Below are positions 2,671 through 21,980 of a stretch of DNA of 32,739 nt, piece by piece; within the stretch, counting starts at the first letter, position 1, and every line of letters starts with the position of its first letter. The stretch lies in NCBI GenBank assembly GCA_012728075.1, contig JAAYFV010000157.1, positions 1 through 32,739 on the forward strand, written 5' to 3'. The notes beneath the pieces are model-generated. The model ran no database searches. It was not told the DNA's origin and was given only the letters and a program-made list of their open reading frames with translations. Made by a program: the position numbers and the translations under genes. Source of the stretch: Tissierellia bacterium. Its GTDB lineage: Bacteria; Bacillota; Clostridia; Tissierellales; Tepidimicrobiaceae.

Positions 2671-3936
2671 TTAATACCATCCTCTTAATTTCATTACATC
2701 AGCAATTTTTTTAACTGATAACATATAAGCTGCTTCTCTTATTGTAACATCATACTCTTCTTTTAATGCCCAAATATCATTAAAAGCTTTGACCATTTCT
2801 ACTTCTTGCTTTTCTTCTACTTCTTTTTCACTCCAATAGTATCCATATAGATTTTGTACCCATTCGAAATAGGATACTGTGACCCCTCCTGCATTTGTTA
2901 ATATGTCTGGTGTTACTGGAATTCCCCTTTTATTAAGTACTTCATCAGCCTCTGGAGTTATTGGTCCATTGGCTGCTTCACATATCAATTTGGTATTTAC
3001 TTTTTCTGCTACTTCAGCTGTAATGGCATTTTCTAAAGCAGCTGGTATAAGTATATCCACTTCTAATTTCCAAAACTCATCAAGGGAAATCTGTTTAGCT
3101 TTTGGATAGCCAACCAAATTTTTATGCTCATCCATATAAGCTTTTAGATCCTCAAAATCTAAACCATCTTCGTTGTATAGTGCATAAGTTCCAATTGATG
3201 GTGTCCACTCACCTATAGCTACAATCTTAGCCCCTTGACGTTGTACATTCTTAACAGTATAAGAGCCAACATTTCCAAAACCTTGTACTGCTACTTTTGC
3301 GCCTTCTATTTCTATACCAAATTTTTTAGCTGCTTCCCTAGTAATAACAGATACTCCAAAACCTGTAGCTTCATTTCTTCCTTCAGAACCCCCCCATGCA
3401 ACTGGTTTGCCAGTTAAAACTCCGAGAGAGGATTCACCAGCTAATTTATTATATTCATCTGCCATCCAAGCCATTACTTGTCCATTGCTCCCAACGTCTG
3501 GAGCGGGTATATCAATTTTTTCTCCTAAATACTTGTGCAATCCTTGTATATAACCTCTAGACAACCTCTCCAATTCCCCTTGAGATAAACTTTGAGGGTC
3601 TACTTTAATACCCCCTTTTCCTCCACCATAAGGTACACCCATAACCCCACATTTAAAAGTCATCCATACGGATAGGGCTTTTACTTCATCAGGATTTACT
3701 CCTGGATGGAATCTAATCCCACCTTTACCAGGTCCTATAGCATCGTTGTGTACAGCTCTGTAACCCTTAAACACCTTAGTAGTACCATCATCCATCTTAA
3801 CTGGTATAGATATTTCAATCATTCGTTGGGGCTCTTTTAATATCTCATATACTGCGGGATCCAATCCTAAAGCATCACAAGCAGCCTTAACTTGTTTTTG
3901 TGCACTCTCTAATGGGTTTAAACTTTCTTTTGCCAT
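2671..3936 (-). CDS. gdhA: NAD(P)-dependent glutamate dehydrogenase
   Basis: The enzyme converts glutamate to 2-oxoglutarate and ammonia. In fermenters it normally runs in this catabolic direction with NAD. The 421 residues form the ELFV dehydrogenase fold. The substrate and catalytic lysines K71 (GPGKGGIRFHP), K95 and K107 (GGGKGGI) and catalytic D147 (PAPDVGSNG) show the spacing known from hexameric clostridial GDH. A Rossmann motif QGFGNVGS is at 218-225. The ATG at 3934-3936 follows GGGAGGTAG. It lies 166 bp after buk, behind its own probable promoter. Beside an aminotransferase and 2-oxo-acid oxidoreductase operon, it would regenerate the 2-oxoglutarate that accepts amino groups. NAD versus NADP preference is not clear from sequence. 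Confidence 0.95.
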   Translation of the reverse strand: MAKESLNPLESAQKQVKAACDALGLDPAVYEILKEPQRMIEISIPVKMDDGTTKVFKGYRAVHNDAIGPGKGGIRFHPGVNPDEVKALSVWMTFKCGVMGVPYGGGKGGIKVDPQSLSQGELERLSRGYIQGLHKYLGEKIDIPAPDVGSNGQVMAWMADEYNKLAGESSLGVLTGKPVAWGGSEGRNEATGFGVSVITREAAKKFGIEIEGAKVAVQGFGNVGSYTVKNVQRQGAKIVAIGEWTPSIGTYALYNEDGLDFEDLKAYMDEHKNLVGYPKAKQISLDEFWKLEVDILIPAALENAITAEVAEKVNTKLICEAANGPITPEADEVLNKRGIPVTPDILTNAGGVTVSYFEWVQNLYGYYWSEKEVEEKQEVEMVKAFNDIWALKEEYDVTIREAAYMLSVKKIADVMKLRGWY

Positions 3937-4102: not shown

Positions 4103-5170
4103 TTATTCAGTATACTCTCTAGCTTTTTCTTCGCCTCTTAACACCCTTAAAATTCCATAAGCTAAGGATTCCATTTCATTTTCTCCTGGCATTATTTCAA
4201 CTGGTGCAATATATTCTACACGCTTTTTAATCCATGAAGTAATCATTTTAGAATATGCAATTCCACCTGTTAGAATAATTAAATCTACATTGCCTTCTAC
4301 CACAGTTGAAAGTTCTCCTATACCTTTAGCAACCTGATAAGCCATAGCTTCATATATAAGTTTAGCTTTTTCATCACCATTTTCAATCATCTTCTCAACT
4401 TCCCTAGCATCTAATGTACCTAGATAGGCTTTTAATCCACCATTTCCCCTTAATTTTTTAAGCATGGTAACTTTATCATACTTTCCTGAATAACATAATT
4501 CAATAAGTTCTCTACAAGGTACCCTGCCTGCCCTTTCTGGTGAAAAAGGTCCTTCATCATCAGAGATAATATCCACAATTCGACCTTTTTCATGAACATT
4601 CAAGGATATCCCACCACCTAAATGAGCAACTACAATATTCATATCTTGATATTTTTTCCCATATTTTTTAGCTGCTTTTATGGCCATAGCTCTAGTATTT
4701 AATACATGACAAGTACTTGTCCTCTCTATCTCTGACATGCCAGAGATCCTTGCTATATCATGTAATTCATCAGTTCTTACCGAATCATATATATATGCTT
4801 TAACTCCAGCATCTTTTGCTATTGCATATGCAATAGGCGCCCCCAAGTTTGAAGCATGTTCCATAACAGGTCTATTTTTAAGGGTATCAAGCATACTTTC
4901 ATTTACTATATAAGCACCAGATTTTACTCGGGGAAGCATACCTCCTCTTCCTACTACAGCAGACAATTCTTTAATATTTAAATCCTTCTCTTCTAAAAAT
5001 GACAATACCAAATCTTTTCTCATCTCATATTGCCCTTGTACATTTTCAAATTTCTCTATGACTTCAATAGGGTGTTCTAAGGTTTCGGTAAAAACTTCTC
5101 TTTCATCTTCATATAATGCTATTTTTGTTGAAGTTGAACCTGGATTAATAGCCAATATCTTGTAGCTCAT
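4103..5170 (-). CDS. buk: Butyrate kinase family (acyl phosphate:ADP phosphotransferase)
   Basis: The product makes ATP and a free acid from butyryl phosphate or another short or branched acyl phosphate. It belongs to the acetokinase (ASKHA) family: the first phosphate-binding motif is INPGSTSTK near the N-terminus, and HLGGGISLNVHEKGR and SDDEGPFSPERAG follow mid-protein. The length (about 355 residues) is normal. Two ATG codons stand in tandem (5171-5173 and 5168-5170). AGGAG is 4 bases from the first and 7 from the second, so I take the second. It is the last gene of the iorA-iorB-ptb-aminotransferase-buk operon, 30 bases after the aminotransferase. That context suggests the acyl group comes from 2-oxo-acid oxidation rather than from butyrate synthesis (inference). 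Confidence 0.93.
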   Translation of the reverse strand: MSYKILAINPGSTSTKIALYEDEREVFTETLEHPIEVIEKFENVQGQYEMRKDLVLSFLEEKDLNIKELSAVVGRGGMLPRVKSGAYIVNESMLDTLKNRPVMEHASNLGAPIAYAIAKDAGVKAYIYDSVRTDELHDIARISGMSEIERTSTCHVLNTRAMAIKAAKKYGKKYQDMNIVVAHLGGGISLNVHEKGRIVDIISDDEGPFSPERAGRVPCRELIELCYSGKYDKVTMLKKLRGNGGLKAYLGTLDAREVEKMIENGDEKAKLIYEAMAYQVAKGIGELSTVVEGNVDLIILTGGIAYSKMITSWIKKRVEYIAPVEIMPGENEMESLAYGILRVLRGEEKAREYTE

Positions 5171-5200
5171 CATAGGTCTCCTTTCTTCCTTATAAAATAT

Positions 5201-6301
5201 TTATTTGTTTAATACCGCTTTAAGTTCAGTTATAAATTTCTCCGTTTGCTCTACGGTTCCAGTACTAACCCTAAGCCAATTATCCCATCCCCATAGGTAT
5301 CCTGGTCTTATTATTACTCCTCTTTTCATTAGCTCTTCAAATGCAATCTTTGAGCTAGTTCCAATATTAACCCATGTAAAATTAGCATTGGATTTTACAT
5401 ATTCAAGCCCTAAGCTATCGAAGAATTCCTCCATCATCTCTAAAGATTTATAATTTAATTTAACTGTTTTATCAATATGCTCTTGGTCTTCTAATGCTGC
5501 TAAAGCTGCAACTTGAGCAAGTCTGTTGACATTAAACACACCTTTAACTTTACTCATTTCTGTAGCAATCTCCTTTGATGTAAGGGCAAAGCCTACACGT
5601 ACAGCTGCTAAACCACTTACTTTGGAAAAAGTTCTTAAAATAATAGTATTTGGTCTTTTATTTAATATTTCCAAAGTTTCAGGATAATCTGGATTAACCC
5701 TAGCAAAATCATAATATGCTTCATCAAATACAATAACTATATCCTCTGGCACATTGTCAACTAGATAATTGATCTCTTCTCTTGTCATTATATTGGGTAT
5801 AGGATTATTTGGATTACATACATATATTAATTTAGTCTTATCATTTATATTCTCAACAAAAGCTTCAAAATCATGTTTGTAATCTTCTGTAAGAGGAATT
5901 TCCACTGGTACTCCTCCCATATGAGTTACACTATTAGAGTATATATTAAAAGTTGTATCAGCCATAATTGCTTCATCGTCAGTATTTATAAAAGTCTGAG
6001 CAATTATTCTTAATACCTGCTCACCCCCGTTCCCTATAACTATGTTTTCATAATCTAATCCATATTTTTTAGCTAATGCATGTCTTAATTCCATGGCTCC
6101 AGCATCAGGATAAACATTTAAATTTTTTAATTCATTTTTTACAGCTTCAACAGCCTTTGGAGATGGTCCTAGTTGGTTTTCATTAGATGCTAACTTTACA
6201 ACATCTGTCAAACCATATTCCTTTTGTACCTCCTCTACAGGTTTCCCAGGTACATAAGGTTGTAACTTTGATAATTCATTTCTAAATAGACTTTTTGACA
6301 T
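5201..6301 (-). CDS. HisC-like class I/II aminotransferase
   Basis: A PLP-dependent aminotransferase of 366 residues, most like histidinol-phosphate/aromatic aminotransferases. The N-terminal [12 protein letters not shown], the PLP lysine K227 in RTFSK, R235 in RVGF and the carboxylate-binding R344 (LRVSTG) are in place. The usual HisC stretch NPNNPTGT reads NPNNPIPN (163-170), a clear departure. There are no other histidine-biosynthesis genes here. It lies inside the operon between ptb and buk, downstream of iorAB, so a catabolic role feeding 2-oxo acids (aromatic or branched-chain) to IorAB is more likely than histidine synthesis. The ATG at 6299-6301 is preceded by AAGGAGA. Substrate is inferred. 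Confidence 0.85.
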
Positions 6302-6365
6302 ATTATCATTCTCCTTTTCAATTTAATATATGAATAATAATAACTTTAATATATAATCTTTAATA

Positions 6366-7268
6366 TTAAACTGCAGCTGCAGATAATACTAAAGATAAGT
6401 ATTTTTCTTCTGTCGAAGAACCTCTAGATGTTAATACAACAGGAGCTTTTGCTCCAACAATAAATCCTGCCATCTTAGAATTACCTGAATATATAAGGGA
6501 TTTTGCCAAAATATTACCTACTGTTATATTAGAAGCTAATAATATATCTACATCTCCAGCAACGGGACTATTAAAACCTTTTACCTCTGCAGATTCCTTG
6601 TTTATCGATAGATCATAAGATATTGGGCCTTCTATGATACAATTTTTTATTTCTCCATTTTGATTCATCTTCTTTAATTCTGCTCCATCTACTGTTTCTG
6701 GCATCTTTGGATTAACGTTCTCTACTGCTGCTAAAACTCCAATCTTCGGTTTTTTATAACCAAGGGATAGCATAACATCTACTGCATTTTCTATTATCTT
6801 CCTTTTTTCTTCAAGATCAGGATACATAACCATACCCCCATCAGTAATAACCAATAATTTATGGTAAGTAGGTACTTCTAAAATTGCAAAATGTGACATA
6901 AGTTTATCTGTTCTAATTCCTTTTTCTTTATCAACAACAGCTTTTAAAAGATCGGCAGTTTGGATTTTCCCTTTCATTATAAAATCAGCTTCACCCATAT
7001 TTACCAATTCAACAGATTTATAAGCAGCAGCTCTTTCATCTTTCACATCTATAATAAATTCATCATTAATAGAATGATCTTTTTTGTATAAAATTTCACT
7101 TATTTTCTTCTTGTTCCCAATAAGTATAGGATCTATAATTCCTTCTTCATTAGCTTTAAATATCGCTTCTAAAGTATGTGTATCTTCAGCAACTACTACT
7201 GCTACTTTTCTTCTTCTCTCAAATTTGCTAACTTTTTTTATTAATTGCTCAAAATTATTAATCGTCAT
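6366..7268 (-). CDS. ptb: Phosphate butyryltransferase family
   Basis: The enzyme exchanges CoA for phosphate on butyryl-CoA or related acyl-CoAs, making the acyl phosphate used by Buk. The 300 residues fit the PTA/PTB family. The body shows EVPTYHKLLVITDGGM, then GFNSPVAGDVDILLASNI and a C-terminal SRGSSTEEKYLS. The ATG at 7266-7268 follows AAGGAGAGGG. It is third in the operon, 83 bases after iorB, and a strong hairpin lies in that gap. Close relatives accept valeryl, isobutyryl and isovaleryl-CoA; acceptance of arylacetyl-CoA is possible but not shown by sequence. Confidence 0.93.
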   Translation of the reverse strand: MTINNFEQLIKKVSKFERRRKVAVVVAEDTHTLEAIFKANEEGIIDPILIGNKKKISEILYKKDHSINDEFIIDVKDERAAAYKSVELVNMGEADFIMKGKIQTADLLKAVVDKEKGIRTDKLMSHFAILEVPTYHKLLVITDGGMVMYPDLEEKRKIIENAVDVMLSLGYKKPKIGVLAAVENVNPKMPETVDGAELKKMNQNGEIKNCIIEGPISYDLSINKESAEVKGFNSPVAGDVDILLASNITVGNILAKSLIYSGNSKMAGFIVGAKAPVVLTSRGSSTEEKYLSLVLSAAAV

Positions 7269-7296
7269 AATCCCTCTCCTTATGAAAGTTTAATCA

Positions 7297-7333
7297 ATTG
7301 TTCAGTAAGAAATGCAGATTCTTACTGAACAAT
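7297..7333 (-). other. 15-bp perfect hairpin inside the operon, between iorB and ptb
   Basis: ATTGTTCAGTAAGAA (7297-7311) and its exact reverse complement (7319-7333) flank a 7-base loop. No T-run follows on either strand, so a simple terminator is unlikely. An RNA processing or stabilising element is a better guess. It lies between the iorB stop and the ptb ribosome site. Confidence 0.75.
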
Positions 7334-7351
7334 CTATTTTATAAAAAATAA

Positions 7352-7927
7352 CTATACAGCATCCATTCCTCTCTGAAATGCTTTAAGGTTTATATCAACA
7401 AATTTTTCTTTTACATTGTCTTTTATTGCCTTTTCCCAGTCAATATCTGATAAATCCATTGCTTTAACTAATGCCCCAAGTAATACAATATTCATAACCT
7501 TCATATTTCCTAGTTCCTCCGCTATATTTGCTGCATTTATTACGCTAGTATTAGATTTACTTTTAATAATATCTATTACTCCCTCTGGATAATCTTCTTT
7601 TCCCATAAGTATTGGAGCTGAAGGAATCTTATAATCGTTCACCACAACTTTACCATTAGGTTTTAAATATTCTAACCATCTTAAAGCTTCCATAGCTTCA
7701 AAAGAAACTAATACATCTGCTTCTCCTCTACCAATAATAGGTGAAAAAACTTCATCTCCATACCTTACTTGGGTAGAAACACTTCCCCCTCTTTGTGCCA
7801 TACCGTGAATTTCAGACATCTTAACATCATAACCTGCTTCAACAAGTCCTGCAGATAAAATTTTACTCGCAAGAATTGTTCCTTGTCCTCCTACCCCTAC
7901 CAATAATACACTCTTTGTTTCTGCCAT
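7352..7927 (-). CDS. iorB: Indolepyruvate:ferredoxin oxidoreductase, beta subunit
   Basis: This is the gamma-domain-type subunit (2-oxo-acid oxidoreductase, POR-gamma family) that pairs with IorA to decarboxylate aryl or branched 2-oxo acids to acyl-CoA with reduction of ferredoxin. VLLVGVGGQGTILASKIL is at the N-terminus and EIHGMAQRGGSVSTQVRYG follows, both family signatures. I start it at the ATG 7925-7927, one base past the iorA stop, because AGGTGG lies 9 bases upstream. A GTG three codons earlier overlaps iorA but directly abuts the ribosome site. That gives 191 residues, usual for IorB. The one-base spacing implies translational coupling with iorA. Confidence 0.92.
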   Translation of the reverse strand: MAETKSVLLVGVGGQGTILASKILSAGLVEAGYDVKMSEIHGMAQRGGSVSTQVRYGDEVFSPIIGRGEADVLVSFEAMEALRWLEYLKPNGKVVVNDYKIPSAPILMGKEDYPEGVIDIIKSKSNTSVINAANIAEELGNMKVMNIVLLGALVKAMDLSDIDWEKAIKDNVKEKFVDINLKAFQRGMDAV

Positions 7928-7928
7928 T

Positions 7929-9707
7929 TTATTCACCCACCTTGCTTATTGCTTTTACTGGACATACTTGCATACATAGTTCACAGCCTACACATTGTAC
8001 TTCATCAATACTTGATTTTTTAGTTTCCTTATCAAAGTATATTGCTGGGCATCCAGTATTTACACACATTTTGCAGCCAATACATTTCTCTTGATCTACT
8101 TCACATACACCTGGTACATATTTAAATTCTTTTTTATCATATTCAGACAATCTCTTAAGTGCACAAGGCCATCTTGAAATAATTACAGAAGGCTCATCAA
8201 GATCATAAGCCCAATCAAAAGCTTCTTTTAATTCATTTAGTTTTAAAGGATTAATAGTCCTAACATGTTCTACTCCTAAAGCCTTAACGATTTCAGGAAT
8301 GTTTGCCATCTTAGTCGTTTCTCCTTGAAGAGTATATCCAGTTCCTGGATTATCCTGATGTCCAGTCATACCAGTTACTCTATTATCAAGTATACAAGTA
8401 ATAGTATTACTCTTATTGTATACTACATCTAGTAGACTAGTCATTCCAGAATGAAAAAAAGTAGAATCGCCAATAACACTTACCACTCTTCTATCATCAT
8501 TATATTTATTGATTAATTTTTCCATACCATGTCCTAAACTAACACTAGCACCCATACATATAGTTGTATCCATAGCATTTAATGGTTCTGCACCACCTAA
8601 TGTATAGCAGCCTATATCTCCAGTTATTATAGTATTTTTCCTTTTCCCTAGTTCATAGAAAAATGCCCTGTGAGGACATCCTGCACATAAAGTAGGGGGC
8701 CTATTTACCACAATAGATTTATCATATTTAATAGTTTCTCGTTCATTGCCAAGTAAAGATTTTTCTACAATTTCTGGATTCAATTCCCAAATATTAGGGA
8801 TTTTGTCTTTCCCTATACAGTCTATCCCCAAAGCCTTAACTTGTTCTTCTATAAATGGTTCCAATTCTTCTACTACATATATAGTTTCTACCTCTTGAGC
8901 AAATTTTTTTATTTTATCTACAGGAAGAGGGTTGGTAAAGCCTAATTTTAAATAAGATGCATTGTTCCCAAATACTTCCTTGGCATATTGGTAGGCTATT
9001 CCAGATGAAATTATACCTATTTTTTTGTCATTCCATTCAATATAGTTTAAATCCGTTTCATTAGAAAATTTTTCTAATCTTTTTAACCTTTCTTCTACTT
9101 TTACATGTAATTGTTTAGCAACTGCAGGAGCTACATAATATTTCATTAAATTCTTTTTATATGGTTTTAGAGGTACTTCTTTTCTTTCCCCTACTTCTAC
9201 TAAAGATTTACTATGGCATACTCTTGTAGTCAATCTCATTAAAACAAGGGTATCAAATTCTTCACTTATTTCCATAGCAATCTTAACCATATCCTTAGCC
9301 TCTTGGCTATCACTTGGCTCTATCATGGCAACTTTACCAAATTTGGCATAATATCTGTTGTCTTGTTCATTTTGAGAGGAATGTAGTCCAGGGTCATCTG
9401 CAGTAATTAATACCATTCCTCCATTAACCCCAGTATAACCTGCAGTAAAGAATGGATCCGCAGCCACATTTAATCCCACATGCTTCATAGCAGCAAGGGA
9501 TCTTGCTCCAAATATGGAAGCTCCTAAAGCTGATTCTAATGCAACTTTTTCATTTGGTGCCCACTCTGCTATTATTTTTTCTTTATAACGGGCTAATTCT
9601 TCTAATATCTCTGTACTTGGTGTTCCAGGATAAGCAGAAGCATAATGAATACCAGCTTCATAAGCTCCAAGAGCTATGGCTTCATTTCCTGTCAATAGCT
9701 TTTTCAT
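7929..9707 (-). CDS. iorA: Indolepyruvate:ferredoxin oxidoreductase, alpha subunit
   Basis: The large TPP-dependent subunit makes arylacetyl-CoA (or a related acyl-CoA) and CO2 from the 2-oxo acid, passing electrons to ferredoxin. The 592 residues run: pyrimidine-binding domain (GNEAIALGAYEAG, YPGTPSTEI), a middle domain, a TPP domain (CAGCPHR, GDIGCYTLGG, then GDSTFFHSG for Mg-TPP), and a C-terminal two-cluster ferredoxin domain. The clusters are C-x2-C-x2-C-x4-CP and C-x2-C-x2-C-x3-CP. The ATG at 9705-9707 follows AAAGGAGGA. It is the first gene of the operon, behind a near-consensus promoter and a leader hairpin. Aromatic 2-oxo acids are the family's classical substrates. Confidence 0.95.
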   Translation of the reverse strand: MKKLLTGNEAIALGAYEAGIHYASAYPGTPSTEILEELARYKEKIIAEWAPNEKVALESALGASIFGARSLAAMKHVGLNVAADPFFTAGYTGVNGGMVLITADDPGLHSSQNEQDNRYYAKFGKVAMIEPSDSQEAKDMVKIAMEISEEFDTLVLMRLTTRVCHSKSLVEVGERKEVPLKPYKKNLMKYYVAPAVAKQLHVKVEERLKRLEKFSNETDLNYIEWNDKKIGIISSGIAYQYAKEVFGNNASYLKLGFTNPLPVDKIKKFAQEVETIYVVEELEPFIEEQVKALGIDCIGKDKIPNIWELNPEIVEKSLLGNERETIKYDKSIVVNRPPTLCAGCPHRAFFYELGKRKNTIITGDIGCYTLGGAEPLNAMDTTICMGASVSLGHGMEKLINKYNDDRRVVSVIGDSTFFHSGMTSLLDVVYNKSNTITCILDNRVTGMTGHQDNPGTGYTLQGETTKMANIPEIVKALGVEHVRTINPLKLNELKEAFDWAYDLDEPSVIISRWPCALKRLSEYDKKEFKYVPGVCEVDQEKCIGCKMCVNTGCPAIYFDKETKKSSIDEVQCVGCELCMQVCPVKAISKVGE

Positions 9708-9739
9708 TTAACGTCCTCCTTTTCATCAATTGATGTTCT

Positions 9740-9811
9740 AAAAAAAGGTTTTCCTTTCTTCTTTATATAAACATATTAATAATATTACAAAAATATAAAA
9801 AGGAAAACCTT
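9740..9811 (-). terminator. Terminator-like hairpin in the iorA leader (attenuator candidate)
   Basis: AAGGTTTTCCTTT (9745-9757) pairs perfectly with AAAGGAAAACCTT (9799-9811) across a 41-base AT-rich loop. On the minus strand the 3' arm runs into seven T residues. The predicted iorA transcript starts at about 9811, so both arms would lie in its leader, about 35 bases before the ATG. It could equally end read-through from the symporter gene, which has no other terminator. Confidence 0.65.
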
Positions 9812-9817
9812 AAATAT

Positions 9818-9846
9818 ATTATATAATCCCATGAACTTAAGTTCAA
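9818..9846 (-). promoter_or_regulatory. Promoter of the iorA operon
   Basis: On the minus strand TTGAAC (9841-9846) and TATAAT (9818-9823) are exactly 17 bases apart. This is the best promoter in the catabolic region. It lies between the symporter stop and iorA, giving a leader of about 104 bases. Confidence 0.75.
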
Positions 9847-9858
9847 AGACTTAAGTTC
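9832..9858. promoter_or_regulatory. Tandem operator-like sites at the iorA promoter
   Basis: A 14-bp perfect palindrome, TGAACTTAAGTTCA (9832-9845), covers the -35 box and part of the spacer. Its half ACTTAAGTTC (9835-9844) recurs at 9849-9858, 14 bp away and just upstream of -35. Position and symmetry suggest binding by a dimeric regulator. I do not recognise the family. Confidence 0.55.
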
Positions 9859-9894
9859 TACAATAATTATATAACGCAAATTACATGCCATTAA

Positions 9895-11262
9895 TTATAT
9901 TTTTAAAATACCAGTAGCAGTTAAAAATACAAATATTAATAATATAGGAACAATATATTTAGTTACATTATACCATATATTAAATAATTTAAATTCAAAT
10001 TTACCATTACTAGTAACTTCATCTTTAGCAACTTGTTTGTCCCATACCCAGCATATCACCAAAGCTCCAGCTAATCCAACTAAAGGCATAGAAATATTGG
10101 ATACAAAATAATCATATAAATCAAATAGTCCTAAACCAAATATTTCAACATGGCTCCATCCTCCAAAACTCATTAAAGGTGGAATACCTAAAAGCATAAC
10201 TACTATACTCATAATAATAGCTGCTTTTTTCCTTTTTATATTGGTATTTTCAATAATGTATGTTACAGATACTTCTAACATAGAAATAGAAGATGTTAGA
10301 GCAGCAAGAAAAAAGAATACAAAAAATATTGCTGCAAAAAAAGTCCCAAAAGGCATTTGCCCAAAAACACTTGGTAAAGTTACAAAAACTAATCCTGGGC
10401 CTTCACCTGGTGATACTCCAAATGCAAATACAGCAGGTAAAATAGCCAATCCAGCTAAAAGTGCAACAATTGTATCAGCTACTACAACCGAATATGTTGC
10501 CTTAGGTAGACTTTCATCTTTACTAAAATAACTTGCATATGTTGCCATGGCTCCTGAACCAAGACTTAAAGTGAAAAATGCCTGTCCTACAGCAGCAACA
10601 AAGGTTGAACCTGTTACTTTAGAAAAGTCTGGCTTTAAATACCATATTATACCATCCTTTGCACCTGGAAGGGTCACAGAACGAATAACTAATACAATTA
10701 ACAATACAAGTAATGCAGGCATCACAATAGATGAAACTTTTTCTATACCTTCTGTAATACCTTTAATTATTACCATGGTATTAATCGCTAAATATATAAT
10801 TGTAAATAGGGCAACTTGAGGAGAATTAATAACAAAATTACCAAAAGTTGCTTCTACTTGTGCCGAACTTAAACCAATTAATTTGCCTGATATAGTTTGA
10901 ATAAAATAATAGATTGACCAACCTCCAATTATATTATAGAAAGATAGAAGAACTGTAACTGCTATCATTGAAAGATATCCAGGAATTTTAAATTTTCTAT
11001 TATACTGGCCATATGCTTCAACAACATCTGAACCTCCATGTCTACCTATAGCCATCTCAGTTAGTGCAATAGTAACTCCAATTACAAGGATACTAACTAA
11101 ATAAATCATGACAAATGCCCCACCGCCGTGGACACCAGTAATATATGGAAATCTCCATATATTACCTAAACCTACTGCAGAACCAGCTACTGCCATGATA
11201 AATCCAAAATTTGATTTAAACTGTTCTCTATTGTCTTTTATTTGTAATTCCTTATTGTTCAC
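9895..11262 (-). CDS. Sodium:neurotransmitter symporter family amino-acid transporter
   Basis: An integral membrane protein of the NSS/SNF (LeuT, MhsT) family that imports amino acids with Na+. The diagnostic TM1 motif GSAVGLGNIWRFPY is at 27-40, with the unwound substrate- and sodium-binding stretch. The TM8 Na2-site motif (LTSSISMLEV) lies about two thirds along. I count 11-12 hydrophobic segments in 455 residues, typical of bacterial members. The start is GTG (11260-11262) with AAAGGAGGA 6 bases upstream. It faces the same way as the iorA operon next door, so it probably supplies an aromatic or branched-chain amino acid to it. Substrate cannot be read directly. Confidence 0.92.
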   Translation of the reverse strand: MNNKELQIKDNREQFKSNFGFIMAVAGSAVGLGNIWRFPYITGVHGGGAFVMIYLVSILVIGVTIALTEMAIGRHGGSDVVEAYGQYNRKFKIPGYLSMIAVTVLLSFYNIIGGWSIYYFIQTISGKLIGLSSAQVEATFGNFVINSPQVALFTIIYLAINTMVIIKGITEGIEKVSSIVMPALLVLLIVLVIRSVTLPGAKDGIIWYLKPDFSKVTGSTFVAAVGQAFFTLSLGSGAMATYASYFSKDESLPKATYSVVVADTIVALLAGLAILPAVFAFGVSPGEGPGLVFVTLPSVFGQMPFGTFFAAIFFVFFFLAALTSSISMLEVSVTYIIENTNIKRKKAAIIMSIVVMLLGIPPLMSFGGWSHVEIFGLGLFDLYDYFVSNISMPLVGLAGALVICWVWDKQVAKDEVTSNGKFEFKLFNIWYNVTKYIVPILLIFVFLTATGILKI

Positions 11263-11334: not shown

Positions 11335-11686
11335 GTATACTACCTCCCTCTTTAAATTTAAATATATTAAGGACGCACTTTCTGTGGCAATAAACCTCGG
11401 TTAGAATATTATGAATATTTTAACTATTCTTGATATAAATGCCCTTGACTTCTTAAAGCCTTTCTATATATTTAGGTTAAATGGTATTAAAATTTAACAC
11501 CCTTTAACCAAATCTAATATATTCTAAAATACTTAGTCCTTCCTTAGCTAGGTTTTTTTCATAGAGTTCGCCACCTACTTCTAAATTGCCTATACTTAAA
11601 TCTATCATAAAAAGACTAAGTATTCAATTTATAATTAGATAAAGGTAAATTTTGTCTTTACAAATATGAATAAAACAATAAAAATA

Positions 11687-11717: not shown

Positions 11718-12926
11718 TTAATTTACACTTTCTAGTATCTCATCTATATTATCCAAAGCCTCAATTAACTCTGGTAATACTTCATATACATCTCCTACTA
11801 CGCCATAGTCTGCTATTTTAAATATGGGGGCATTTTTGTCCTTATTTATAGCTACAATAACCTCAGATTCCTGCATTCCAGCTAAATGCTGTATTGCTCC
11901 CGATATTCCACAGGCTATATATAAGGTAGGCCTTACTGTTTTACCTGTTTGGCCAACCTGATGGGATTGATCTATCCAACCTGCATCTACTGTAGCACGA
12001 CTAGCTCCCACTACTGCTCCTAATTTTTCTGCTAATTGTTCTATTAACTTAAATCCTTCAGGATTACCTAATCCCCTGCCACCAGATACTATTATATTAG
12101 CCTCTTCCAATTTTATCTGAGCTTTTGCTTCTTTTACTACTTCTAATACTTTAGCCTTGATATCTTCTTCCCTTAAATTTGGAACGAACTTTTCAATATT
12201 TCCTAATCTGCTTTCATCATATTTAGCCTTTTCCATAACCCCTGGTCTTACTGTAGACATTTGAGGTCTATGGTTGGGACAAATAATAGTTGCCATAAGG
12301 TTTCCGCCAAAGGCAGGACGTGTCTGAAGTAATCTTCTATTTTCCTTATCCACTTCTAATCTAGTACAATCAGCTGTTAAACCTGTATGGATTCTTGCTG
12401 AAATTCTTGGCCCTAAATCCCTTCCTATATTAGTAGCACCTATTAACATAATCTCAGGCTTTCTCTCTTTAATCAAATCACATATCACCTTTGTGTATCC
12501 ATCAGTAGTATATATTTGTAATAATTCCGATTCCCCATATAGTACATTGTCTGCTCCATATTTGATAAGCTGTTTTGCTAAATCTTCTACATCTTTACCC
12601 AAAAGTATTGCTGTCAATTCTGTATCTAATTCATCAGCTATTTTTCTTCCTTCTCCAATCAATTCTATAGATACATTGAGTAATTTTCCTTCCCTTTGTT
12701 CAGCAAACACCCAAACACCTTTATATTCATCTATATTTATAATATTTTTTTCCCTTTCTTCCATTATTATAGCTTCTTTAGGACAAACGTCTATACAATT
12801 CCCACAAGCAGTACATTTATCCGTTATTACTGCTTTTTCATCTACCATGTCTATAGCATCAAAGGGACAGGTATCAATACATATTCCACAACCTATACAC
12901 TTTTCTTGTATAACTTTTACTGCCAT
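11718..12926 (-). CDS. etfA: Electron transfer flavoprotein alpha subunit with N-terminal ferredoxin domain
   Basis: The product carries electrons to or from the acyl-CoA dehydrogenase encoded just upstream. The first 60 residues are a two-[4Fe-4S] ferredoxin domain ([13 protein letters not shown] and [13 protein letters not shown]). After this comes the EtfA N-domain from about residue 68, and the FAD domain with [23 protein letters not shown] and [12 protein letters not shown]. Plain EtfA is about 320-340 residues; the extra domain makes 402. Similar fusions occur in anaerobe EtfA proteins such as CarE of caffeyl-CoA reductase. The ATG at 12924-12926 follows AAAGGGGG. It is third in acd-etfB-etfA, 22 bases after etfB. 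Electron bifurcation with ferredoxin is plausible, not proven. Confidence 0.95.
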
Positions 12927-12948
12927 GATATTTCCCCCTTTCCATATA

Positions 12949-13740
12949 CTATATTAACTTTTCTTCTTTTAATCTTACTATCAATTCCCTTGCTTGCTCT
13001 TTTGGACTTCCTTCGATTATTTCCGATTCTCCGCCTCTTCCAGGAGGGGTAAAGGATTTATTCACTTGAGTAGGTGATCCATCTAATCCTATATTCTTCT
13101 CATCTACATTTATATCCTTTGCAGATAAAATTTTTATTCTATCTCCCTTAAATCCCTCATATATACCCCTTATAGATGGATATCTAGGTTCATTTAATTC
13201 CTTTATGGCTGTAATTAAAACAGGTAATTCAGCTTCTATTACAAAGTACCCATCTTCAAGGGCTCTTTTTGCCTTTACTTTTTTACCTTCAAGCTTTAGC
13301 TCCTTTACATAAGTAATCTGAGGTATCCCTAGATGTTCTGCAATCTGCGGTCCTACTTGAGCAGTATCTCCATCTATAGCCTGCCTTCCACAAAATATGA
13401 TGTCATAATCCCCTATGGCCTTAATCCCCGCTGTTAATGCTGTTGACGTAGCCCATGTATCTGAACCAGCAAAGGCTCTATCGCTTAACAATATAGCTTC
13501 ATCTGCTCCCATAGCAATAGCCTCTACCAATGCTACCTCCGCTTGAGGTGGTCCCATGCTAAGTACTACTACTTCTACACCTTCACATTCATCTTTTATC
13601 TTTAAAGCTTCTTCTAGGGCATTTCTATCATCTGGATTTATAATACTAGGTACTCCTTCTCGAATCAAAGTTCCTTTAACTGGATCTATCCTTACTTCAT
13701 TGGTATCAGGAACTTGTTTTATACAGACTATAATTTTCAT
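12949..13740 (-). CDS. etfB: Electron transfer flavoprotein beta subunit
   Basis: This subunit forms the EtfAB dimer that serves the neighbouring acyl-CoA dehydrogenase. N-terminal [13 protein letters not shown] is the family hallmark, with [16 protein letters not shown] (nucleotide or FAD contact) mid-protein and [12 protein letters not shown] near the end. I use the ATG at 13738-13740 because AGGAGG lies 7 bases upstream; a TTG one codon earlier is too close. This gives 263 residues, normal length. It lies 20 bases after acd and 22 before etfA. In bifurcating EtfB proteins the bound flavin and NADH meet here. Confidence 0.95.
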
Positions 13741-13760
13741 CAAAATACCTCCTCTATCTT

Positions 13761-14900
13761 TTATCTTAATAGATTAGCTGCAATAACCATTTGTTGCACT
13801 TGGGAAGTTCCTTCATATATTTCAGTAATCTTAGCATCTCTCATCATTCTCTCCACAGGATAATCCTTTGTAAATCCATATCCTCCATGTAGCTGAACAC
13901 ACTTTGTTGTTACATCCATAGCTGTATTAGCTGCAAACAATTTTGCCATAGCTGCTTCTTTATTATAAGGTAGATCATTTGCTTTATTATAAGCTGCTTT
14001 ATATACCAATAATCGACTTGCTTCTATATCAGTTGCCATATCAGCTACCATCCATTGTAAGCCCTGGAATTTAGCTAATGGCCTTCCAAATTGTTCCCTT
14101 TCTTTAATATATTGAATAGTCTTTTCTAAGGCACCTGCTGCTATACCAAGGGCCTGTGCTGCTATACCTATTCGCCCTCCATCCAATGTGGACATAGCAA
14201 TTTTAAAACCTTGTCCTTCTTTTCCTAGAAGATTAGACTTAGGTACTATACAGTCTCTAAATATTAACTCTGTAGTAGAAGAGCCTCGAATACCCATTTT
14301 ATCCTCTACCTTACCTATACTGAATCCTGGGAAATCCTTTTCCACTATAAAAGCAGAAATACCCCTAGTACCTTTCGTCCTATCAGTCATAGCAAATACA
14401 ATATATACATCTGCTTGTCCACCGTTGGTTATGAATATCTTCGTCCCATTTAATATATAGTTATCTCCATCTAGCATTGCTACAGTCTGTTGACCAGCCG
14501 CATCAGTGCCAGCATTAGGCTCTGTTAGTGCAAAAGCACCTAGTTTTTCACCTTTTGCTAAGGGGACTAAATACTTTTGTTTTTGCTCTTCTGTTCCATA
14601 TCTATATATAGGCCAACATCCTAGAGAAGTGTGAGCCGAGCAAATAACACCAGTGGTAGCACACGCCTTAGATAATTCTTCAACAGCAATAGCATAGGCT
14701 ATTTCGTCTCCACCTGCACCTCCATATTCTACAGGAAAAGGTATACCTAGCATATTATATCTAGCCATTTTTCCCACTGTTTCTCTAGGAAACCTGCCTT
14801 GTTCATCGATCTCTGCAGCTATAGGTTCAACTTCTGATTCTGTAAACTTTCTCATAACTTCCCTTACCATTTCCTGCTCCCTCGTTAAATTGAAATTCAT
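13761..14900 (-). CDS. acd: Acyl-CoA dehydrogenase (butyryl-CoA dehydrogenase-like)
   Basis: A FAD enzyme that interconverts acyl-CoA and 2-enoyl-CoA. In anaerobes it usually reduces the enoyl-CoA using electrons from EtfAB. At 379 residues it is standard. [13 protein letters not shown] and [17 protein letters not shown] are the family signatures, [15 protein letters not shown] lies near the C-terminus, and Glu363 is in the catalytic position. The ATG at 14898-14900 follows AGGGAGGG. It is first in the operon with etfB and etfA. No thiolase, crotonase or hydroxyacyl-CoA dehydrogenase is in the window, so the acyl chain could be butyryl or another acrylyl-type CoA, including aryl-acrylyl-CoA. 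Confidence 0.93.
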
Positions 14901-21820: not shown

Positions 21821-21850
21821 GTGACAAACACATTTAATAGTTCAAGTATA

Positions 21851-21962
21851 ATCTTCTCCCATCCAGACTTTCACTGTCGGCCTTGGAATTTCACCAAGTC
21901 AACTGGATTTACCAGCTCGCGGGCTATACCGCCGGTGAGGAATTGCACCTCGCCCTGAAGAT
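21851..21962 (-). ncRNA. FMN riboswitch (RFN element)
   Basis: On the minus strand the leader carries AGGGCGAGGTGCAATTCC, then CACCGGCGGTA, GCCCGCGAG, CCGACAGTGAAAGTC and GGATGGGAGAAG, the conserved core of the FMN aptamer. The closing P1 helix is ATCTTC (complement of 21957-21962) with GAAGAT (complement of 21851-21856). When FMN is bound, ribU expression should fall. Confidence 0.97.
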
Positions 21963-21980
21963 GTTTATTTAGTTATATCA

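Follow-up and report, generated by a model that had tools for sequence, protein, structure and literature searches.

An iorA-iorB-ptb-aminotransferase-buk operon of a Tissierellia bacterium as a probable oxidative Stickland branch for aromatic amino acids

A contig of 32,739 nucleotides from a Tissierellia bacterium (JAAYFV010000157.1 of assembly GCA_012728075.1; contig C113, analysed in full and called the window here) carries a five-gene operon, iorA-iorB-ptb-AT-buk, in which AT stands for a HisC-like aminotransferase. This operon probably represents an oxidative Stickland branch for aromatic amino acids. The draft genome behind the window consists of 2.38 Mb in 229 contigs and is 98.6% complete and 3.2% contaminated. 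The five open reading frames all lie on the minus strand between 9707 and 4103, with successive gaps of -8, 83, 64 and 27 bp, which bears out the co-directional arrangement with short gaps described in an earlier note made from the sequence alone. All window coordinates given below likewise refer to the minus strand.

The first gene, iorA (7929..9707), encodes the alpha subunit of an indolepyruvate/arylpyruvate:ferredoxin oxidoreductase (IOR) with a thiamine pyrophosphate site and two C-terminal 4Fe-4S clusters (domains POR_N, TPP_enzyme_C and Fer4), and it overlaps the beta-subunit gene iorB (7352..7936) by 8 bp. Both products scored above the curated cut-offs of their families (IorA, TIGR03336, 733 bits vs 650.9; IorB, NF005325, 295 bits vs 230), identifying IorAB as the two-subunit form with a fused alpha subunit. 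Downstream lie a Ptb family member that we predict to be a phosphate arylacetyltransferase (6366..7268), AT, predicted to be an aromatic amino acid aminotransferase (5201..6301), and a Buk homologue predicted to be an arylacetate kinase (4103..5173; TIGR02707, 484 bits vs 289). We infer the substrates, direction and regulation of the operon from sequence. AT would convert Phe, Tyr and Trp to arylpyruvates, passing the amino group to 2-oxoglutarate, which Gdh would regenerate; IorAB would turn the arylpyruvates by oxidative decarboxylation into arylacetyl-CoA and reduced ferredoxin; Ptb would form arylacetyl-phosphate; and Buk would yield ATP and an arylacetate (phenylacetate, hydroxyphenylacetate, perhaps indoleacetate). 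The sequence of transamination, ferredoxin-linked decarboxylation and substrate-level phosphorylation had been proposed in the earlier note, and it is now supported by the enzyme families, by synteny, by the clade of Ptb and Buk and by published assays on related enzymes.

That Ptb and Buk of the window are matched to arylacetyl groups is well supported by their relationship to enzymes of the Hpd cluster. In C. scatologenes, HpdDEFG together with HpdJ, a Ptb homologue, and HpdK, a Buk homologue, convert hydroxyphenylpyruvate to hydroxyphenylacetate and ATP; HpdJ and HpdK were active on hydroxyphenylacetyl groups by assay, and identical clusters are stated for C. drakei and C. carboxidivorans P7 (Jiang et al. 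2026, PMC13285125). A hydroxyphenylacetate decarboxylase (NF033715, 1707 bits vs a cut-off of 1150) and an activase identified the C. carboxidivorans cluster (L119). The window Ptb and Buk were 65% and 78% identical to the HpdJ and HpdK orthologues of this cluster, which are sister-species counterparts rather than the C. scatologenes proteins themselves, and 46% and 48% identical to the second Ptb and Buk copies of their own genome, which are of the VOR-linked type (contig C127). The window Ptb fell below the TIGR02706 phosphate-butyryltransferase equivalog cut-off (338.2 vs 410.5), as did the C. carboxidivorans HpdJ orthologue (339.5); the VOR-linked Ptb of the sister genome G001 passed it (411.9). 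In trees, both window proteins grouped with Hpd and IOR-linked proteins, within the HpdJ/HpdK-like clades, and the second copies on C127 and the C. acetobutylicum Ptb (7vg9) were set apart by branches with 97-100% SH-aLRT support (99 for Ptb, 100 and 97 for Buk).

A short residue signature follows the same division. Gly occurs at window Ptb positions 144, 145 and 283 in each of the 36 IOR- or Hpd-linked Ptbs that were compared; in the VOR-type or C. acetobutylicum Ptbs (n = 6), Ala occupies positions 145 and 283 in every sequence and position 144 in five. Positions 144-145 fall inside the TD(GG/AA)M motif, and 283 comes immediately after a conserved Ser-Arg. A roomier acyl pocket in HpdJ-like Ptbs would be an attractive explanation. 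In published work, the IOR-adjacent kinase of C. difficile works best on phenylacetate and hydroxyphenylacetate and less well on indoleacetate, the VOR-linked kinase of that species favours propionate, isobutyrate and isovalerate (PMC13285125), and I. bartlettii has an IOR-like enzyme with a preference for aromatic 2-oxoacids (PMC13290082).

The aminotransferase carries a name that does not appear to describe its role. AT scored above the cut-off of the histidinol-phosphate aminotransferase family (TIGR01141 'hisC', 335 bits vs 277), but the genome has a distinct hisC, 32% identical to AT, adjoining hisD in a his operon on contig C40. HisD was missing from 13 of the 15 AT-bearing genomes tested, a set that includes the window genome, and was present only in the window genome and its sister G001; it was also not found in G006, tested alongside them, which lacks AT. 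We rejected AT as the biosynthetic HisC because of this separate hisC and because 13 of 15 AT-bearing genomes lack histidinol dehydrogenase. Since AT persists without histidine biosynthesis and sits with transporters and IorAB, the best inference is that it serves as an aromatic amino acid aminotransferase.

The gene grouping is conserved well beyond the window. The block rex-bcd-etfB-etfA-activator-(transporter)-iorA-iorB-ptb-AT-buk-gdh recurred in genomes of related genera in the same family, and the order iorA-iorB-ptb-AT-buk was maintained in other genera and families, which argues that the grouping is not random. Carriers found by genome scan include [Clostridium] ultunense DSM 10521, Clostridium sp. 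Cult1 and Cult2, Anaerosalibacter massiliensis and several Tissierellia metagenome-assembled genomes. This search for the same order, which the earlier note had put forward as a check, also located AT between ptb and buk in nine lineages (the window, G001, Cult1, Cult2, C. ultunense, Anaerosalibacter and loci L112, L113 and L116). The embedded aminotransferase had been thought unusual; it is indeed uncommon but not unique in kind, as B. subtilis ptb-bcd-buk has a deaminating enzyme at that place (PMC2788229).

Gene content and order nonetheless varied. G006 has the operon without AT; G011, G007, G031 and G057 have iorA-iorB-AT-buk with no ptb; G056 has the order iorA-iorB-buk-AT; and in G048 a ptb-iorA-iorB-buk group stands apart from its activator-transporter-AT group. 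Elsewhere among clostridia, ptb-iorA-iorB-buk occurs either with no AT or, in Geosporobacter and C. magnum, followed by an aminotransferase from a different subfamily. These variants indicate that the unit, as judged from its gene arrangements, is a module in which the genes for transporter, aminotransferase, IorAB, Ptb and Buk have been reshuffled and whose order is not frozen. Operons with iorAB-AT-buk and no ptb were seen at loci L218, L220, L221 and L222. A protein of about 223-230 amino acids lies between iorB or ptb and buk at L117, L120, L122, L123 and L127 (Geosporobacter, Dethiosulfatibacter, some Clostridium); the L117 copy had no Pfam match in our search and looks membrane-bound.

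Upstream of the operon, the conserved promoter is of the sigma-54 type by its motif. A perfect -24/-12 match, TGGCATGTAATTTGC (9876..9890), lies 183 bp ahead of iorA and immediately past the stop codon of the upstream transporter gene, and it is the sole perfect sigma-54 match in the window; as a background rate, perfect sites stood ahead of 5 of 792 genes. In relatives the site is retained, and an intact gene for a sigma-54 activator with PAS and AAA+ domains separates etfA from the operon; loci L053 and L054 have neither. Across every retrieved locus that has a cluster of this kind, a site with no more than one mismatch was present at 24 of 29 loci with a nearby activator vs 3 of 30 without (Fisher p = 1.1e-8, a value that overstates the association because the loci share phylogenetic history and still include some duplicates). 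In the window, tblastn with the C. ultunense activator recovered a remnant of the activator gene at 11507..11627, in which the start region (11627-11553) and the last 15 codons (11551-11507) are out of frame with each other and about 2 kb of intervening sequence is missing. No orthologue was found elsewhere in the genome (best match 47%). Either a genuine deletion or a misassembly of the draft genome could account for the loss. G001 (L047) and Cult1 (L050, G017) exhibit the opposite loss: the transporter upstream of iorA is a 3' remnant and the activator is kept.

The ancestral state would thus have been a sigma-54 promoter turned on by the neighbouring activator. With the activator deleted here, expression in the present genome would require a different activator or a secondary sigma-70-like site. 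The best such site among the leaders compared is TTGAAC-17-TATAAT at 9846-9818, which might be relevant after the activator loss. We rejected it as the main promoter: sigma-70-like sites in the region were no commoner than in shuffles (36 vs 42 +/- 6), its -35 box is not conserved, and 20% of shuffled leaders reached its score. The single good promoter envisaged earlier is therefore not borne out as such; a sigma-70-like site is present but not significant alone, and the conserved promoter is the sigma-54 one.

Several observations weigh against an arylacetate pathway. The larger Ptb clade also includes some VOR-linked copies from other organisms, mainly Lachnospiraceae, and the clade alone is for this reason no proof of substrate. 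The sequence of a 2-oxoacid:ferredoxin oxidoreductase (OFOR) does not always predict aromatic specificity (PMC13290082). To these can be added the use of sister-species orthologues in the identity comparison, the operons that do without ptb and the broken activator gene of the window, as well as the neighbourhood of butyrate genes. Ptb and Buk could mainly serve butyryl-CoA from the adjacent Bcd-EtfBA, with IorAB and AT co-regulated and feeding other acyl-CoA sinks. Rex-bcd-etfBA does lie upstream, etfA abuts iorA with no activator between them in L053 and L054, the window Bcd is closest to the C. difficile Bcd, and the genome holds thiolase (thl), crotonase (crt) and hydroxyacyl-CoA dehydrogenase (hbd) genes. 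We nevertheless consider this arrangement unlikely, given that Ptb lies under the phosphate-butyryltransferase cut-off and groups with Hpd enzymes, that Buk is so close to the HpdK orthologue, that the second Ptb/Buk on C127 and a CoA-transferase gene pair are available to finish butyrate, and that the L051 operon remains without bcd-etf genes at its locus. The earlier claim that Ptb and Buk do not act on butyrate from chain elongation thus appears likely from the clade evidence, but it cannot be derived from context, because Bcd-EtfBA is adjacent and thl, hbd and crt are present.

A further point against exclusively aromatic substrates is that a BrnQ-type branched-chain transporter occupies the transporter slot in G031 and G057, so a mixed substrate range is possible. 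Some VOR-like enzymes act on aromatics, showing that specificities can shift (PMC13290082). A role of the operon in turning branched-chain amino acids, or amino acids of both classes, into branched acids by oxidation is quite unlikely all the same: the family has a separate VOR-Ptb-Buk locus, comprising VorABG, a ptb and either one or two copies of buk, which is the natural branched-chain arm, and IOR-linked kinases favour aryl acids where VOR-linked ones favour branched acids (PMC13285125). In the window genome this locus is split by contig ends between C127 and C15, and its VorG is 95% identical to that of G001. Of the aromatic or branched substrates first suggested, the aromatic ones are therefore upheld by the Hpd-clade Ptb and Buk, and the branched ones are weakened by the parts of this second locus. 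The pathway might also run in reverse, with exogenous arylacetates activated by Buk and Ptb at the cost of ATP, carboxylated by IorAB and aminated by AT to aromatic amino acids. The Hpd pathway is described as thermodynamically reversible at each of its steps, and an anabolic IOR has been proposed for methanogens and Bacteroides (PMC13285125). Such a direction is very unlikely here, as amino-acid importers and Gdh are present at the locus, clostridial sigma-54 activators largely govern fermentation and amino-acid catabolism (PMC6615313), and the Bacteroides locus proposed to be anabolic has an AMP-forming ligase instead. Oxidation of aromatic amino acids to arylacetates is the reading we prefer.

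The transcript of the operon would contain two conserved structures. Directly 3' of iorB, an intercistronic hairpin (7297..7333) with a 14-bp stem occupies the same position in nine lineages; 98.4% of its alignment cells are paired, three pairs are changed on both sides, and the one-sided changes all give G-U on the transcribed strand. A strict version of the pattern was found in 8 of 249 genomes, at one site each and always in the gap of the operon that follows iorB, and no other site was found in the 249 genomes. The hairpin is kept in G031, G057 and G007, which lack ptb; in G001 and G011 it is missing or degraded. We rejected an intrinsic terminator, as no consistent U-run follows the hairpin, and a DNA operator, as the spacing of the arms varies and the one-sided changes are G-U on the transcribed strand. 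Our best guess is that this apparently unreported hairpin is an mRNA-stabilising or processing element that would set the ratio of iorAB to the downstream genes. With somewhat less than even confidence, we suggest that it is an RNA element specific to this operon and preserved through compensatory changes, perhaps adjusting IorAB against Ptb-AT-Buk, and that the operon may have been rewired from sigma-54 to sigma-70 after the activator was deleted.

The iorA leader (9700-9866) folds more stably than expected (z = -4.45) and contains a long stem-loop, AAGGTTTTCC...GGAAAACCTTTTTTT (9716..9815), upstream of the ribosome site. A T-run follows this stem-loop, as in a terminator, and the stem AAGGTTTTCC/GGAAAACCTT recurs in three relatives; attenuation is therefore possible, judging from these features. 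Rfam identified only an FMN riboswitch in the window, away from the operon.

Both the pathway type (OFOR-Ptb-Buk to arylacetate) and the style of sigma-54 control have already been published. Like the window, the Hpd cluster of C. scatologenes, C. carboxidivorans and C. drakei groups an OFOR with Ptb and Buk homologues (PMC13285125), and like the window lineage it has a sigma-54 activator gene and a -24/-12 site, upstream of ptb. Its OFOR is a VOR-like enzyme of four subunits rather than a two-subunit fused IOR, and, unlike it, the window locus has an aminotransferase and no hydroxyphenylacetate decarboxylase. Sigma-54 control of tyrB-iorAB-butK was predicted in 2019 as the ZypR regulon of Clostridioides, Clostridium and Romboutsia, which likewise combines an aminotransferase, iorAB and a butyrate kinase (PMC6615313). 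The window locus has the -24/-12 promoter of a ZypR-type regulon but no adjacent intact activator (enhancer-binding protein, EBP) gene, that gene being deleted in this genome, and unlike the regulon it has ptb inside the operon. AT is HisC-like, in contrast to the aminotransferase of Geosporobacter and C. magnum whose gene adjoins buk and which belongs to NF005305. The B. subtilis bkd operon (ptb-bcd-buk-lpdV-bkdAABB; BkdR, SigL) resembles the window in placing a deaminating enzyme between ptb and buk, in its sigma-54 activator and in converting a 2-oxoacid to acyl-CoA before Ptb and Buk act (PMC2788229); it differs in using leucine dehydrogenase and an NAD-linked dehydrogenase complex on branched substrates, where the window has an aminotransferase and ferredoxin-linked IorAB. 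A 2026 paper (PMC13290082) reported that OFOR genes occur together with genes for an aminotransferase, Ptb and Buk. The IOR loci of I. bartlettii and C. difficile, with aromatic-preferring IOR-type enzymes, an OFOR near aminotransferase, Ptb and Buk homologues (PMC13290082, PMC13285125) and an IOR-linked kinase that prefers phenylacetate and hydroxyphenylacetate, resemble the window in their published descriptions. The HisC-type aminotransferase between ptb and buk, with a two-subunit IOR, in Tissierellia looks new, and we add evidence that the 'butyrate' and 'histidinol' names mislead, the conserved hairpin and the activator loss in the window genome.

The flanking genes are in keeping with this gene set. 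A glutamate dehydrogenase gene, gdh (2671..3936; PF00208/PF02812), starts 166 bp past buk, as it does after buk in most family relatives, and probably regenerates 2-oxoglutarate for the transaminase. Upstream of iorA, an NSS-family sodium:amino-acid symporter (9895..11262; PF00209) is probably the substrate importer, and it adjoins the operon also in Cult2, C. ultunense, G011 and G007. Its best solved-structure match is 4us3, which we take to be MhsT, a carrier for hydrophobic amino acids, aromatic and branched alike; this match counts in favour of branched substrates. A literature search on MhsT found nothing. At L108, L109, L218 and L222 a near-consensus sigma-54 site (one mismatch) lies upstream of the NSS gene itself; none was found ahead of the window copy. 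Farther upstream, after rex, bcd-etfB-etfA (11718..14900) encodes a butyryl-CoA dehydrogenase and a ferredoxin-fused EtfA, with 5ol2_C (592 bits) and CarE 6fah_A as the closest solved structures. An aryl-acrylyl-CoA reductase of a reductive branch was rejected for this acyl-CoA dehydrogenase-EtfBA set in favour of Bcd, because CarC scored 381 bits against 592 for 5ol2_C and because neither of the genome's two HGD-D dehydratase genes has an FldBC-like pair beside it; both stand alone. Outside the conserved block, an aldehyde:ferredoxin oxidoreductase gene (165-2051) downstream of gdh could interconvert aryl acids and aldehydes. The FMN riboswitch (21847-21966; RF00050, 115.7 bits) lies upstream of an ECF-transporter S component gene (21745-21140), probably for a riboflavin transporter.

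Both p-cresol and host-active metabolites derive from arylacetates such as phenylacetate and hydroxyphenylacetate, and the genes that would produce these acids here are currently annotated as 'butyrate kinase', 'phosphate butyryltransferase' and 'histidinol-phosphate aminotransferase'. If our reading is true, name-based counts of butyrate producers or histidine pathways would be inflated in Tissierellia, and gene context, clade and the short Ptb residue signature could provide a correction. The conserved hairpin, together with the repeated loss of activator, transporter or ptb, makes the regulation of this operon open to comparative testing.

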